Positions 7,589 to 49,112 of a stretch of DNA of 64,000 bases are shown here, in pieces. Every line of letters begins with the position of its first letter. Position 1 is the stretch's first letter. The position numbers and the translations under genes were made by a program. The notes beneath the pieces were generated by a model that saw nothing but the letters and a program-made list of their open reading frames with translations, searched no databases and was not told where the DNA came from. The DNA comes from Anaerolineaceae bacterium (GTDB taxonomy: Bacteria; Chloroflexota; Anaerolineae; Anaerolineales; Anaerolineaceae): contig JARKPB010000010.1 of assembly GCA_029975475.1 (NCBI GenBank), forward strand, positions 124,001 through 188,000, given 5' to 3'.

Positions 7589-8281
7589 GTGGCCGGGTCT
7601 GACGCTGCCGATCTGCCTGCCCTGCGGCGGCTGGCCGGTGAAATTTACACCCGATTAATCCAGTTTTTTGGACTGCCAGAGTGGCGCAACCCGCTGCCAG
7701 CGCTGGATGAACTGGTCTCAACCATCCTCTCGCAAAACACCAACGACCGCAACCGCGACCTGGCGTTTGACTCGCTGCGCGCTGCCCTGCCCACCTGGGA
7801 AGAGGTGCGCGATGCCGATCCGGCGGTCGTGATCCGCGCCATCCGCACGGCCGGGCTGGCCAACCAGAAAGGCCCGCGCATCCAGGCGGTGCTGCGCCAG
7901 ATCACGGCTGAGCGCGGCAGCCTGAATCTGGATTTTCTCAAAGACATGCCCGCCGAAGAAGCGCTGAACTGGCTGATGCGCTTCAAGGGGGTTGGGCCTA
8001 AAACGGCCGCCATTGTGCTGGTCTTCTCGCTTGGAAAACCGGCATTCCCGGTGGATACACACATTTACCGGGTAAGCGGGCGGCTGGGTTTGCGTCCTGA
8101 AAAGATGAGCGTGGAAGACGCTCACCCGCACCTGGCGAGCCTGTTTGCCCCGGAGACATACGGCCCGGCGCATCTCAACCTGATTCGCCTGGGGCGAGAA
8201 ATCTGCCTGGCGCGAAAGCCAAACTGCCCGGCCTGCCCGGTGAGCAGCCTGTGCGCTTATTTTCGGGTTTCGAGCGGCTGA
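7589..8281 (+). CDS. nth: Endonuclease III-like DNA glycosylase/AP lyase
   Basis: Base-excision repair enzyme of the HhH-GPD superfamily, 230 aa. The helix-hairpin-helix FKGVGPKTAA carries the catalytic Lys (K138), and the catalytic Asp is D156 in VDTHIYRV. The C-terminal 4Fe-4S loop has exact C-x6-C-x2-C-x5-C spacing. It starts with GTG three bases after the MBL gene stop, so it is probably cotranscribed. Its 3' end overlaps the convergent GNAT gene by 25 bp. Confidence 0.88.
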   Translation: MAGSDAADLPALRRLAGEIYTRLIQFFGLPEWRNPLPALDELVSTILSQNTNDRNRDLAFDSLRAALPTWEEVRDADPAVVIRAIRTAGLANQKGPRIQAVLRQITAERGSLNLDFLKDMPAEEALNWLMRFKGVGPKTAAIVLVFSLGKPAFPVDTHIYRVSGRLGLRPEKMSVEDAHPHLASLFAPETYGPAHLNLIRLGREICLARKPNCPACPVSSLCAYFRVSSG

Positions 8282-44825: not shown

Positions 44826-45824
44826 ATGAAGCGCACCTGGATCCTCGTTGTTCTAATTCTTCTGCTGGCTGTTTTGGCGGGCTGCGGCGCACAGCCGACC
44901 GAAGCCCCGCCAGAAAACACGCCAACCCTGGCTGAACCGACCCCCAGCCCCACCCCGGCGCCGCCGCGCGCGGTACTGGTCGTCCCGGAAGGCGCTGACC
45001 CGGCCGCAGCCAGCCAGGTCAACGACAGGCTGGTTCAGTTAGGGACGGAAGCCGGACTGAGCGTTGACCGCCTGAATGCCCTGCAGCCCGGCGAGGTAAC
45101 CTCAGAAGTCAGGGTGGTGGTATTCCTCTCCCCACCAGCGGATCTGAGCGCGTTTCTCTCGTCTGCCCCGCAGACGCAGTTTATTGTCATCAGCAGCCAG
45201 GATCTGCCGCAGGCGCCAAATTTAAGCGTCATCCGCACCCGTGCCGAAGACCTGGCTTTTCTGGGCGGGTATACCGCGGCCATTCTGGCGCCGGACTGGC
45301 GGGTTTTAGCCCTGCTGGACAGCAGCGCCCCGGATGCCGCGTCTTTTCAGCAGGCGTTTAGCAACGGCTTTGCTTACTGGTGCGGGGTCTGCGTGGTCTC
45401 GAGTCCGCCTTTCATCAGTTTCCCGCTGGTCGCCAGCCAACCCGGCGGCGACCCGACCGCCTGGCAGGGCGCCGTGGATTCCCAGAAGGCGAACAACCCC
45501 ATGCTGCTCTTTCTCGGCCCGGGCGTGCTCAGCGATGACCTGGCCGCCTGGATCGCCGGGCAGAACCGGTTGATGTTCGGGGCTGGCGCGCCGCCGGAAA
45601 GCGCGCGCAGCACCTGGGCAGGCACGCTGGGATTTGACCTGGCGGCATCCCTCGCCGGCCTCTGGCCAGAGGTGCTCTCCGGAACGGGAGGAAAAACCGT
45701 ATCCGCAGCGCTGACCATCACCAACATTCAACCGGGAATTCTGACCGACGGGCGTTTCCGTCTGGTGCGCGAAATGGCAGATGAACTGGCCGCGGGACGT
45801 ATTCAACCCTTCAACGTGCCCTGA
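44826..45824 (+). CDS. BMP/PnrA-like substrate-binding lipoprotein
   Basis: A 332-aa lipoprotein: lipobox Cys20 (LAVLAGC), a Pro/Thr linker (about 22-48), and a periplasmic-binding-protein fold that resembles the BMP family (AFLGGYTAAILAPDWRVLAL, then AFSNGFAYWCGVC and AALTITNIQPGILTDGRF). No permease gene is adjacent, so it may be an orphan sensor or binding protein. A bidirectional terminator follows. Confidence 0.7.
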   Translation: MKRTWILVVLILLLAVLAGCGAQPTEAPPENTPTLAEPTPSPTPAPPRAVLVVPEGADPAAASQVNDRLVQLGTEAGLSVDRLNALQPGEVTSEVRVVVFLSPPADLSAFLSSAPQTQFIVISSQDLPQAPNLSVIRTRAEDLAFLGGYTAAILAPDWRVLALLDSSAPDAASFQQAFSNGFAYWCGVCVVSSPPFISFPLVASQPGGDPTAWQGAVDSQKANNPMLLFLGPGVLSDDLAAWIAGQNRLMFGAGAPPESARSTWAGTLGFDLAASLAGLWPEVLSGTGGKTVSAALTITNIQPGILTDGRFRLVREMADELAAGRIQPFNVP

Positions 45825-45859
45825 TCCCGCCTTGAACAGGCTCAACAGCAAGAAAAGAC

Positions 45860-45888
45860 AACCGTCCTGACTTCAGGACGGTTATTTC
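45860..45888. terminator. Bidirectional Rho-independent terminator
   Basis: A 10-bp stem (AACCGTCCTG / CAGGACGGTT) with an ACTT loop. It lies between convergent genes. On the minus strand it is followed by GTCTTTTC; on the plus strand by ATTTC. Confidence 0.75.
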
Positions 45889-46508
45889 TACCCTAAAAAT
45901 TCGCTCGCCGTTTCCTGACCGGGTTGACTGATCCCTTCGCGGCGCACCACTTTCCAGAGGGTGATTGCCAGTATTTTGATGTCCAGCCACAACGACCAGT
46001 GATCGACATACCAGACATCCAACCGGAATTTATCTTCCCAGCTTAACGCGTTGCGCCCATTCACCTGCGCCCAGCCGGTAATTCCGGGCAGGACAGCATG
46101 GCGGCGGGCCTGTTCGGGTGTGTATCGATCCAGGTATTGAACCAGCAGCGGACGCGGACCGACCAGACTCATCTCGCCCCGCAGCACATTGACCAACTCC
46201 GGCAGCTCATCCAGGCTGGACTTGCGCAGGAATCTGCCCAGCGCGGTCAGGCGTTGACCATCCGGCAGGGGCTGTCCCTGCGAGTCAAATGCGTCGCGCA
46301 TACTGCGGAATTTATAGAGGGTAAAGATTCTACCGTCTTTTCCAGGCCGCTGCTGTCGAAAGATCACCGGCCGGCCCAGGCTGACCGCGACCAGCGCCGC
46401 TGTGAGCAGCATGAGCGGCGAGATCAAAATCAGGCCCGGCAGGGTCAACAGCAAATCAAACAGGCGTTTGGCCAGCGGCACCCCGCGCGGAAACAAAGCG
46501 GCGCTCAT
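45888..46508 (-). CDS. Undecaprenyl-phosphate sugar-1-phosphate transferase
   Basis: A 206-aa bacterial sugar transferase (WcaJ/PglC small-domain type) that starts lipid-linked glycan synthesis. One N-terminal membrane segment (about 20-42) precedes the catalytic domain with FRQQRPGKDGRIFTLYKFRS, SLDELPELVNVLRGEMSLVG and PRPLLVQYL. It lacks the extra N-terminal membrane domain of long forms. TAAAAT ends 6 nt before the ATG (46515-46520) with no ribosome-binding site. Confidence 0.9.
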   Translation of the reverse strand: MSAALFPRGVPLAKRLFDLLLTLPGLILISPLMLLTAALVAVSLGRPVIFRQQRPGKDGRIFTLYKFRSMRDAFDSQGQPLPDGQRLTALGRFLRKSSLDELPELVNVLRGEMSLVGPRPLLVQYLDRYTPEQARRHAVLPGITGWAQVNGRNALSWEDKFRLDVWYVDHWSLWLDIKILAITLWKVVRREGISQPGQETASEFLG

Positions 46509-46514
46509 GGCATC

Positions 46515-46520
46515 ATTTTA
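46515..46520 (-). promoter_or_regulatory. -10 box (TAAAAT) of the sugar transferase, probably leaderless
   Basis: On the minus strand TAAAAT ends 6 nt before the ATG at 46508, with no Shine-Dalgarno sequence. Confidence 0.5.
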
Positions 46521-46575
46521 CCAGAGACTGCTCCTTCTTATCCACTCAGGCAGGTTGAAGCAGGGTTGAATCGGT

Positions 46576-46581
46576 TATAAT
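46576..46581 (+). promoter_or_regulatory. -10 box (TATAAT) of the selenoprotein-trpS-dtd operon
   Basis: A perfect TATAAT lies 28 nt before the selenoprotein ATG; TTGAAG at 46555-46560 is a possible -35. Unlike neighbours with near-start boxes, this gene has a GGAGG ribosome-binding site (46598-46602). Confidence 0.5.
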
Positions 46582-46609
46582 TTGAGAAATCATTCCTGGA
46601 GGCGCTACC

Positions 46610-46864
46610 ATGCTGCTTAAAATTTCCATTCAGTATTGCGCTGTCTGACACTATACCGACCGGGCTGTCGGTCTGGCAGCCGATCTGCTGAAAAAATTTG
46701 AGCCGGAAATTAAGGTCATTGATCTGATCCCCTCGGACGGCGGGTGTTTTGAAGTAACTGTGAACGGTAAGCTTTTATATTCCAAGCTCTCGACCGGCCG
46801 GCACGCCAACCCCGGCGAAGTGGTTGGGCTGGTAGAAAAGTATTTGAAGGACGGACCAAAATGA
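46610..46864 (+). CDS. SelW-like (Rdx family) selenoprotein with in-frame UGA selenocysteine codon
   Basis: Reading through TGA at 46646-46648 gives an 84-residue protein of the SelW/SelT/SelH (Rdx) thioredoxin-like family. The redox motif is Cys10-Ala-Val-Sec13 (CxxU) in IQYCAVUHYTDRA, followed by VIDLIPSDGGCFEVTVNG, KLLYSKLSTGRHANPGEV and a C-terminal [10 protein letters not shown]. The frame on both sides is intact and matches the family along its whole length. GGAGG lies 7 nt before the ATG. A 6-bp hairpin with a G-rich loop follows the UGA, as expected for a bacterial SECIS. The stop codon overlaps the trpS start (ATGA), so it is translated with trpS. Standard ORF calling misses it. Confidence 0.9.
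46655..46672 (+). promoter_or_regulatory. Candidate bacterial SECIS hairpin
   Basis: ACCGAC and GTCGGT form a perfect 6-bp stem with the hexaloop CGGGCT. The loop guanines lie 17-19 nt from the U of the UGA, within the spacing known for bacterial SECIS elements, which need a G early in the apical loop. Confidence 0.75.
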
Positions 46865-47850
46865 ATCCAAAAAAGAGCCGGGTTTTTTCCGGCGCGAGGC
46901 CAACCGGCAGGCAGCACCTGGGCAATTACCTGGGTGCGATTAATAATTACATCGCCCTGCAAGAGGAATACGACTGCATTTACTGCATCGTTGACCTGCA
47001 CGCGCTGACCACCATGGAAACCACGCGCGACTTAAGGCAAAACATCCTGGAAATGGCTTACGATTTTCTCGCCGCCGGGATGGACCCGCAGAAGTCCATC
47101 GTGTTCGTCCAATCGCACGTGCCGCAGCTCACCGAGCTCCACACTATCCTGTCCATGGTGACCATGCTCGGCAAGCTGACCGACCTGCCAACATTCAAAG
47201 AAAAAGCGCGTATGCAGCCGCAAAACATCAATTACGGGCTGGTGGGCTACCCGGTCTTGATGACCGCTGACATCACCCTCTACAAGGCAGAATTCGTGCC
47301 GGTTGGCATAGACCAGGCGCCGCACATTGAATTTGCCCGCGAGATTGTGCGCTCGTTTAATTACCGCTACAACACAAACTGCCTGATCGAACCGCAGATG
47401 AAAGTCACCAAAGTTCCAAAAGTTCTTGGAACGGACGGCGTTCAGAAGATGGGTAAAAGCCTGAACAACCATATCGAGCTGGCCGCCACCCCTGAAGAGA
47501 CACAACAGCGCGTGATGACCATGGTGACCGATCCGCAGCGCCAGCGCCGAAGCGACCCCGGGCGGCCGGAAGTTTGCAATGTGTTCAGCATGCACAAGGT
47601 CTTTTCCAGCCCCGAGGAAGTCGAAAGTATTGAACGCGACTGCCGTTCGGCGGGCATCGGCTGTGTGGATTGCAAGAAGCTGTTCGCCAAAAATCTGAAC
47701 GCGCATCTGGCTGGCTTCCGGCAGCGCAGGACTGAGATTGCCGCGCGGCCGGATGAGGTGATTGACATTCTGCAGGACGGCGCGAAACGAGCCCGGGTGA
47801 TTGCTGAAGCCACCATGCAGGAAGTCCGCGCCGCGGTGGGCATGCTCTGA
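46861..47850 (+). CDS. trpS: Tryptophanyl-tRNA synthetase with Fe-S cysteine motif
   Basis: Class I aminoacyl-tRNA synthetase charging tRNA(Trp), 329 aa. The HIGH motif is TGRQHLGNY (His19) and KMSKS is KMGKS (Lys196). C239-x21-C261-x6-C268-x2-C271 closely matches the 4Fe-4S site described in Thermotoga maritima TrpRS, where the first gap is 22. It overlaps the selenoprotein gene by 4 bp and dtd by one base. Confidence 0.93.
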
Positions 47851-48287
47851 TGCGGGCTGTGATCCAGCGCGCGCTGCGCGGTTCAGTGGTTGTAGACGGC
47901 GAAAAAGTTGCCGACTGCGGGGCGGGTCTGGTGATTTTGCTCGGGGTCGGCCCGGCGGATACCCGCCAGACCGCGCAAGCCCTGGCGAAAAAAATCGCCA
48001 TGATGCGCATATTTGGTGATGATCAGGGAAAGATGAACCTGTCGGTGCTGGATACCGGCGGCTCAGCCATTGTGGTTTCGCAATTTACCCTGTATGCGGA
48101 TACTCGCAAAGGACACCGGCCTTCTTTTATCGAAGCAGCGCCCCCGGACCAGGCCAGCGCCCTGTGTGATGCGTTTGTTGAGCATCTGCGCGCTCTGGGT
48201 GTCCCGACCCAGACGGGTATTTTTGGCGCGCACATGCTGGTAGAACTGGTCAATGACGGGCCGGTTACCATCTGGGTAGAGATGTAA
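47850..48287 (+). CDS. dtd: D-aminoacyl-tRNA deacylase
   Basis: A 145-aa DTD that removes D-amino acids and glycine from mischarged tRNAs. [18 protein letters not shown] and the C-terminal [10 protein letters not shown] correspond to the two cross-subunit active-site motifs (SQFT and the Gly-Pro motif). Its start overlaps the trpS stop (TGATG). It ends directly against the convergent AAC(3)-like gene. Confidence 0.93.
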
Positions 48288-49112
48288 TTATCCGCCTGCC
48301 CGGGCTTTGAGCCATTCCACACTAAAATCCACGACACCGCGCTGTGAAAACAGACGGCTTTCAGCCAGAGCAACTTTCCCCACCCGCACCGGGTGGGTTT
48401 TTTCAAAATCCGCACCAATCTGCGGGAAAATTTCCGCGTTAAGCTCCAGATCCTGATACCATTTCCACACGCGCTGACCGTTTTCAAACACTGGCGCGCC
48501 GCGGCGTTCCGGCGCCGCCAACCCGGCCCGGTTCTCCGCCAGGTGCATTGAAGTGTTGTTGCCGTGGCCCACCCCCAGCAACAGCACCCAGCCATCCAGA
48601 TCGTAAACCCGGGCAAGCGGCGAGTGTTCGCCAAAACCGTAATCCAGCCGGTGGCCGGCGACGATCCATTCTGCCTGTTTTCCCCAGGCGGCAAAAGAAT
48701 CGGAGGGATGGCCAGAACGCATTACCCCAGGGTAAGTGCGAAAGAGTTCGGCGATACGCCCGATACCGCGGGTCGGCGTGTAGCGCGGGTCATAGGCGGG
48801 CATGGCTGCGCGGATCGTCTCCACCCATTCCTGCGGCACTGGCGGGTGCTGCCAGACGGCCGGGTCTGAGAGATCGCCGCTGTGAGCGGGCATGACCAGC
48901 GTGCCTTCAGGGGTCAGCACATCCATGAGCGCCTGGATAACCGCTACCGGTCCGCCGCACACCCAGCCCATCCGGGACATGGAAGAATGCACCAGCAATG
49001 TCATCCCGGGTTGGACACCCAGCATCCGCAAATCTTCGGCCAGATTTTCGCGCGTCGCCGGGCGGGACGCGGCCTGAATCGTCTCCGCTTCGGTTATCTT
49101 TTTCTCGGTCAT
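48288..49112 (-). CDS. AAC(3)-like N-acetyltransferase (Antibiotic_NAT family), second copy
   Basis: A 274-aa protein of the aminoglycoside 3-N-acetyltransferase family with the expected landmarks: [44 protein letters not shown] and [19 protein letters not shown]. It is a different subgroup from the copy at 3099-3899. The substrate is not known and resistance should not be assumed. It may be cotranscribed with the PyrD-like gene upstream. Confidence 0.85.

Follow-up and report, generated by a model that had tools for sequence, protein, structure and literature searches.

We conclude from sequence comparisons that a short gene lying directly upstream of the genes for tryptophan-tRNA ligase (trpS) and D-aminoacyl-tRNA deacylase (dtd) in an Anaerolineaceae genome genuinely encodes a SelW-like selenoprotein and belongs to a conserved gene order, selW-trpS-dtd, because it matches the SelW family, carries a conserved in-frame UGA followed by a covarying hairpin, is accompanied by selenocysteine (Sec) genes in the same genome and keeps its gene order in relatives. 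All of these features were observed, as were the gene itself and a cysteine form at the same locus in a relative. Very probably its product is a SelW-like (Rdx) thiol oxidoreductase containing selenocysteine, with a SelB-hairpin mode of Sec insertion at codon 13 and a single transcript shared with trpS and dtd. We propose that SelB, loaded with Sec-tRNA(Sec), would recognize the hairpin just 3' of the UGA, that Sec would thereby be put in at codon 13, yielding a protein of 84 residues whose redox centre is Cys-x-x-Sec, and that this protein, expressed together with translation genes, would have redox activity, most economically in general thiol redox work. Counted against this explanation are the folding energy of the hairpin, the fold preferred by the window's own sequence, two genomes with the UGA gene in which selC and SelB were not found (G036 and G038), the presence of just two hairpin pairs changed on both sides, and the gene order in two further genomes (G026 and G045). 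The core of the first-pass annotation, that a SelW-like gene decoded with Sec lies in a trpS-dtd operon, withstood both of the tests that it had named for its own refutation, namely a genome without selC or selB, and close homologues showing Trp or a sequencing error at the UGA codon.

The selW-like gene and its immediate locus

The window, by which we mean the whole analysed stretch of 64,000 nucleotides, contains on its forward strand a reading frame of 84 codons plus a TGA stop (46610-46864) with a single in-frame TGA at codon 13 (46646-46648), which is predicted to be read as selenocysteine and which completes a CxxU redox motif, Cys10-Ala-Val-Sec13 (46637-46648). Frame, length and motif are thus all as first described, and so is the ribosome-binding site, for which we read the Shine-Dalgarno sequence TGGAGG at 46597-46602 on the same strand, 7 nt before the ATG. 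A perfect TATAAT (46576-46581, forward strand) lies 29 nt 5' of the selW ATG, with TTGAAG 15 nt further upstream, and is a possible -10 element of a transcript on which selW, trpS and dtd would lie together; a consensus promoter scan did not include this TATAAT in its list. The sugar transferase gene 5' of selW is on the opposite strand. An Rfam scan of 45800-48800 recovered no T-box or riboswitch, its sole match at E up to 1 falling below the gathering score.

Downstream on the same strand follow trpS (46861-47850; TIGR00233, 297.8 bits against a cut-off of 176.75) and dtd (47850-48287; TIGR00256, 170.6 bits against a cut-off of 101.5). The selW stop overlaps the trpS start in the four bases ATGA (46861-46864), as had been claimed, and trpS and dtd share one base (47850). 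The description of selW as fused into a trpS-dtd operon is accurate as to adjacency and not as to fusion, there being only this four-base overlap between the genes, and the distance from the UGA to the trpS ATG, put earlier at about 215 nt, measures 212 nt. Inside selW, on the forward strand, a Shine-Dalgarno-like word of trpS, AAGGA, occupies 46847-46851, 9 nt before the trpS ATG.

With Sec written as C the predicted protein, of roughly 9 kDa, scores 71.4 bits with the Pfam Rdx profile (PF10262, cut-off 22.6) over profile positions 1-73 of 74, and 60.6 bits with TIGR02174 (cut-off 34.2). These nearly full-length matches above the cut-offs bear out the earlier assignment to the SelW/Rdx family along the length of the protein. 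The best NCBIfam match, NF041051 (SelTWH_Campy), reaches 75.2 bits, which is under its curated cut-off of 88, and membership of that family was not assigned. The CxxU motif characteristic of the family lies near the N-terminus as C10-A-V-U13, and C10 and U13, together with Y9, are among 13 columns that are invariant in an alignment of 30 homologues. We predict that the protein assumes a thioredoxin-like fold and functions as a thiol redox protein.

Predicted selenocysteine decoding of the UGA codon

We compared 61 genomes, comprising the window's own, 36 of its family and 24 of its order, and detected a homologue in 35 of them at E <= 0.001. One in-frame TGA occurs in 34 of these homologues, in every case at the CxxU codon; the residue at codon 13 is accordingly U in 34, C in one and Trp in none. 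Hence the prospect that close homologues would show Trp or an error at this position did not materialize. The single Cys form, in G016, reads C-V-P-C and also lies directly before trpS and dtd (L226, 1119-1352), and both selC and SelB are present in its genome. Two irregular loci were seen outside this pattern: in L119 (near 238) the selW frame stops early, after 34 residues, and in L101 (near 7700-8000) a stretch of the SelW-like frame is repeated and runs off the locus, each of which may represent assembly error or decay.

These data bear on two other readings of the codon. In one, the gene is decayed or misread, its UGA being either a real stop or an error of sequencing. Ordinary ORF calling indeed ends at the UGA, leaving no selW ORF of at least 60 aa in the ORF list, and one relative, L119, has the further early stop just mentioned; against this, 34 of the 35 homologues, which are 35-72% identical, share the UGA at this position, the family match extends on both sides of it, and the hairpin behind it is kept by codon choice. 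As a general explanation this reading is ruled out by the conserved UGA, and we give it a negligible probability; the gene was rather missed by ordinary gene finding because an internal stop codon is read as selenocysteine. The other reading, in which a changed genetic code has UGA specify another amino acid such as Trp, accounts for the open frame and for nothing beyond it, and is contradicted by the Cys, not Trp, of the UGA-free homologue, by the TGA stops with which both trpS and selW end in the window, and by a tRNA-Sec with anticodon TCA alongside all the sel genes. We consider its chances to be vanishingly small.

The machinery expected for Sec decoding was found in the window's genome (3.15 Mb, 20 contigs, 98.9% complete): selC scores 69.5 bits with the Rfam tRNA-Sec model and is called tRNA-SeC with anticodon TCA by ARAGORN, while selB (329.8 bits, cut-off 242), selA (521.5 bits, cut-off 268) and selD (358.8 bits, cut-off 125) all exceed their thresholds. 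All four genes that the first-pass annotation had proposed to look for are therefore present, and the objection from a missing selC or selB falls away. A single in-frame TGA, in the context NCAG-U-ASK, makes selD a UGA gene as well (L053, G000:C10:43190-44125). The one formate dehydrogenase over the cut-off in this genome lacks a UGA and reads TRLCHAAS (L231, G000:C18:416381-418453); SelD and the SelW-like protein are therefore the only products of UGA genes seen among the genes examined in this genome.

Across the comparison set a genome was scored as having Sec genes if selC reached at least 50 bits, if SelB was over its cut-off, or if selC was cut by a contig end (G005). By this rule Sec genes were seen in 50 of the 61 genomes, and a SelW-UGA gene occurs in 32 of these 50 versus 2 of the 11 in which none were found (Fisher 0.008, with genomes counted as independent); if the cut-off selC of G005 is not counted, the figures are 32 of 49 versus 2 of 12 (Fisher 0.003, again treating genomes as independent). 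A previous tabulation (34/18 versus 0/9, Fisher 0.0003) was discarded, having counted G036 and G038 as Sec-gene-positive. These are SelW-UGA genomes in which neither selC nor SelB over the cut-off was found, the former being 77% complete and the latter 93% complete in about 640 contigs. A full selC is lacking in seven of the SelW-UGA genomes: the assembly interrupts the gene in G025 and G037, and in the remaining five it was not found. The gene is truncated at a contig end in G025 (L208, 1480-1554) and in G005 (L210, 1490-1526), and adjoins a run of N in G037 (L215, 1490-1530); assemblies seem to break inside selC, and such genomes therefore look Sec-less. A selC model built from 21 relatives revealed no intact selC in the 18 genomes without one by Rfam, the ten matches of this model listed there being tRNA-Ser by ARAGORN. 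A selC near-match in G023 proved to be a tRNA-Gly.

Downstream of the UGA we identified a SECIS-type hairpin, GCUGUC-GGUCU-GGCAGC (46664-46680, forward strand), with a stem of six pairs (46664-46669/46675-46680) and a loop, GGUCU, that starts 21 nt after the UGA. The first-pass annotation had placed a hairpin with a G-rich loop 17-19 nt from the UGA; this detail differs, as it is the loop at 21 nt that belongs to the covarying hairpin. In 30 relatives 91.1% of the cells of this stem are paired versus 85.0 +/- 1.1 in shuffles, none of 500 being as high, and at most 62.8% are paired if the stem is slid by 1-3 columns. The covariation score is likewise elevated (0.386 versus 0.244 +/- 0.025, reached by 0 of 500 shuffles). 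Only two pairs changed on both sides in these relatives, a number also reached in 432 of 500 shuffles, and the hairpin signal therefore lies in the paired cells and in the score. Some of the changes in the hairpin alter the protein, as in L018, L029, L035 and L044, where V-to-I before the loop accompanies A-to-M after it.

In a control that kept each protein and dealt its synonymous codons anew, full stems in the covarying register were found in 18 of the 30 sequences versus a mean of 12.2 and a maximum of 15 in 200 shuffles, and the mean folding energy of the stretch was weakly lower than in the synonymous shuffles (-12.4 versus -11.8 +/- 0.35 for the same 30 sequences). A larger set of 102 distinct sequences, obtained by pooling the 30 with 79 listed loci described below and merging identical 48-mers, could be assigned to two registers, with no sequence forming fewer than 5 of the 6 pairs: 47 sequences are of the GGUCU type, and 55 of an upstream-shifted type with the loop CGUGA 17 nt after the UGA. 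Shuffles of synonymous codons have all six pairs in either register in 53.0 +/- 3.25 of the 102 (maximum 65 in 500 shuffles), versus 83 for the real sequences. The CGUGA register takes all 43 sequences with a GTG codon before the loop and has 52 full stems among the 102 sequences, compared with 39.3 in shuffles (maximum 47); taken as a whole, the 30-sequence set gave no covariation in this register. It may be a second form of the element, resting on less than the GGUCU register and having been found on the same data on which it was tested.

The bSECIS model, as given in the excerpted part of PMC13188914, specifies a stem of 4-16 bp, a loop of 3-9 nt with G in its first two positions, a distance of 16-37 nt from the UGA and an energy of at most -7.5 kcal/mol. 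The covarying hairpin conforms to this geometry (6 bp, GGUCU, 21 nt); its energy is -7.4 kcal/mol for the 17 nt alone, slightly short of the -7.5 of the model, whereas a 45-nt stretch reaches -14.6 by adopting a different fold. The most stable hairpin of the window in this region (46656-46676, -9.7 kcal/mol), whose loop begins about 15 nt after the UGA, competes with the covarying one; it was rejected as the SECIS element, with 64.6% of its cells paired versus a shuffle mean of 64.5%.

The selW-trpS-dtd gene order

In 30 loci of the related genomes the next gene on the same strand is trpS in 26 and dtd in four. Among the 26 the trpS ATG lies at -4 in 12, and a start candidate is found within 18 nt in 22. 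As for the other five homologues, trpS is next in G016 and G056, the contig ends in G059, neither trpS nor dtd lies within about 1.5 kb of selW in G026, and in G045 the nearby trpS is divergent and on the other strand. A pattern scan of the DNA of named genomes, requiring TGA and HYT, gave at least 118 matching stretches, 80 of which were listed as loci; given these requirements, the scan covers the UGA forms. After removal of a chance match in a Kangiellaceae record (L100), 79 loci remain, and they partly overlap with the 30. All carry names that we take, from genus placement, to be of Chloroflexota or Anaerolineae; one of them, L104, is from the cultured strain Thermanaerothrix daxensis GNS-1. 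Within 250 nt the next gene among these 79 listed loci is trpS in 69 and dtd in three, while five loci end and two (L099 and L105) have neither; the 69 include L119, with its early-stop selW, and L145 and L153, with divergent TrpRS. Where there is enough sequence, dtd follows trpS in 52 of 55 listed loci. In L230 a divergent TrpRS, likewise 33-35% identical to that of the window, is encoded on the opposite strand from selW.

This conserved gene order is, as far as we searched, undescribed. Literature searches for a link of selW with trpS or dtd, and for Anaerolineae selenoproteins and Thermanaerothrix selenocysteine, returned no paper describing such a link among those listed, which for one search were 20 of 161, at the level of titles and the opening lines of abstracts. 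A study by Haft and Tolstoy in 2025 is said to deal with selenoprotein neighbourhoods and may contain the selW-trpS link. The excerpted text of PMC1794560 and of PMC4607533 does not mention trpS.

The overlap of selW with trpS had led to the claim that Sec insertion controls the coupling of translation into trpS. According to this proposal the gene would act as a switch besides encoding a protein: failed Sec insertion would end translation 212 nt before trpS and lower TrpRS, so that selenium would tune tryptophan charging. The ATGA overlap in the window, the ATG at -4 in 12 of 26 trpS-next loci and an overlap of the two genes in 17 of the 69 listed trpS-next loci are all in its favour. However, the spacing in these 69 is variable (17 overlaps, 26 gaps of 0-20 nt, 16 of 21-60 nt and 10 of more than 60 nt), with 26 of them thus having gaps above 20 nt and gaps in relatives reaching more than 200 nt; trpS has a Shine-Dalgarno-like word of its own in the window and, by raw counts, in all 17 of the overlapping listed loci and 46 of the 48 with a gap, four further listed loci lacking an ATG at the expected place; and dtd stands in place of trpS in four of the 30 loci. 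Furthermore, the window's genome yielded only this one trpS, and strict Sec dependence would therefore be lethal without selenium. Sec control of trpS as a rule is thus unlikely, the claim is not upheld, and a switch operating alongside the protein seems to us improbable, while a weaker polar effect on trpS under selenium shortage may occur.

The gene order also raises the possibility that the SelW-like protein works specifically with TrpRS or DTD, as a dedicated partner that might, for instance, keep the TrpRS cysteines or an Fe-S cluster reduced. It would fit such a role that trpS or dtd is next in 72 of the 79 listed loci, with five of the other seven cut off, that in G016 the Cys form, too, stands at this position, and that a four-Cys motif, C-x(18-26)-C-x6-C-x2-C, occurs in 87 of 91 full-length TrpRS from the two overlapping sets of loci. 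The remaining cases point the other way: L145 and L153 keep the order behind selW with a divergent TrpRS that is 33-35% identical to the window's and lacks the motif, L025 and L083 are also without it as scored, four of 30 loci have dtd and not trpS next, the order is not kept in G026 and G045, and of the 49 genomes scored as having Sec genes 17 do not contain the SelW-UGA gene. Joint expression could by itself be enough to account for the gene order. A dedicated partnership is therefore rather doubtful in our view, and we retain general thiol redox work, carried out by a Sec-containing protein that would be expressed together with translation genes, as the favoured reading. An extension of the partnership, to which we attach only a small likelihood, is that in Anaerolineae a Sec redox protein is a standing partner of trpS/dtd that would protect or repair Fe-S-type TrpRS (or DTD), tying the supply of selenium to translation fidelity, and that together with SelD it is perhaps a main reason for some of these bacteria to retain Sec decoding despite a Cys formate dehydrogenase.

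The conserved neighbourhood in any case provides a concrete lead on SelW-like function, namely TrpRS and DTD. In Anaerolineales that lack a Sec formate dehydrogenase, the protein also offers the Sec machinery a client, and in many genomes annotation can now include a gene missed by standard ORF calling.

Relation to known systems

In the tryptophanyl-tRNA synthetase of Thermotoga maritima a four-Cys motif binds a [4Fe-4S] cluster. We take the motif of this Fe-S type to be C-x~22-C-x6-C-x2-C, with a first spacing of 22 in the Thermotoga enzyme. The window's TrpRS resembles it in having the motif, as C-x21-C-x6-C-x2-C, and in its best solved match, 2g36 (280 bits), and differs in its first spacing of 21. 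The earlier designation of this TrpRS as Fe-S type is thus supported at the motif level, at which the cluster itself is a prediction.

Anaerolinea thermophila UNI-1, according to the excerpted text of PMC4959059, encodes a Sec elongation factor and has no dehydrogenase annotated with Sec, which is comparable to the window's genome with its Sec genes but non-UGA formate dehydrogenase.

SelW-like selenoproteins are an established bacterial family in the sections available of four reports (PMC1088965, PMC1794560, PMC2398784, PMC13188914): they are the most abundant selenoproteins of the Sargasso set, with 48 genes (PMC1088965), number 427 genes in GOS (PMC2398784) and 10 in a 2006 survey (PMC1794560), and are listed under PF10262 with CxxU in a 2026 review (PMC13188914). 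The function of the bacterial proteins is called unclear in the excerpted part of PMC1088965. The family itself is therefore known, and the operon link with trpS-dtd is the new part. Near-full-length profile matches to solved Rdx structures, including 2fa8 (Atu0228), 3dex (SAV_2001), 2p0g and 2npb (SelW), span E-values of 2e-16 to 9e-6 over 8 distinct chains, and in the alignments shown 2fa8 and 3dex have Cys where the window protein has Sec. SelTWH_Campy, the SelW of Epsilonproteobacteria, is similar both in being the best NCBIfam match and in that its genes have likewise been overlooked by annotation, as stated in the excerpted text of PMC4607533, and differs in that the window protein scores below the family's cut-off. 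With bacterial SelW-like selenoproteins at large (PF10262, TIGR02174, CxxU) the window protein shares the near-full-length profile, the Sec as second residue of the CxxU pair and the UGA followed by a hairpin; unlike anything we found reported for them, the type of gene found in the window sits directly before trpS or dtd in most of the loci read.
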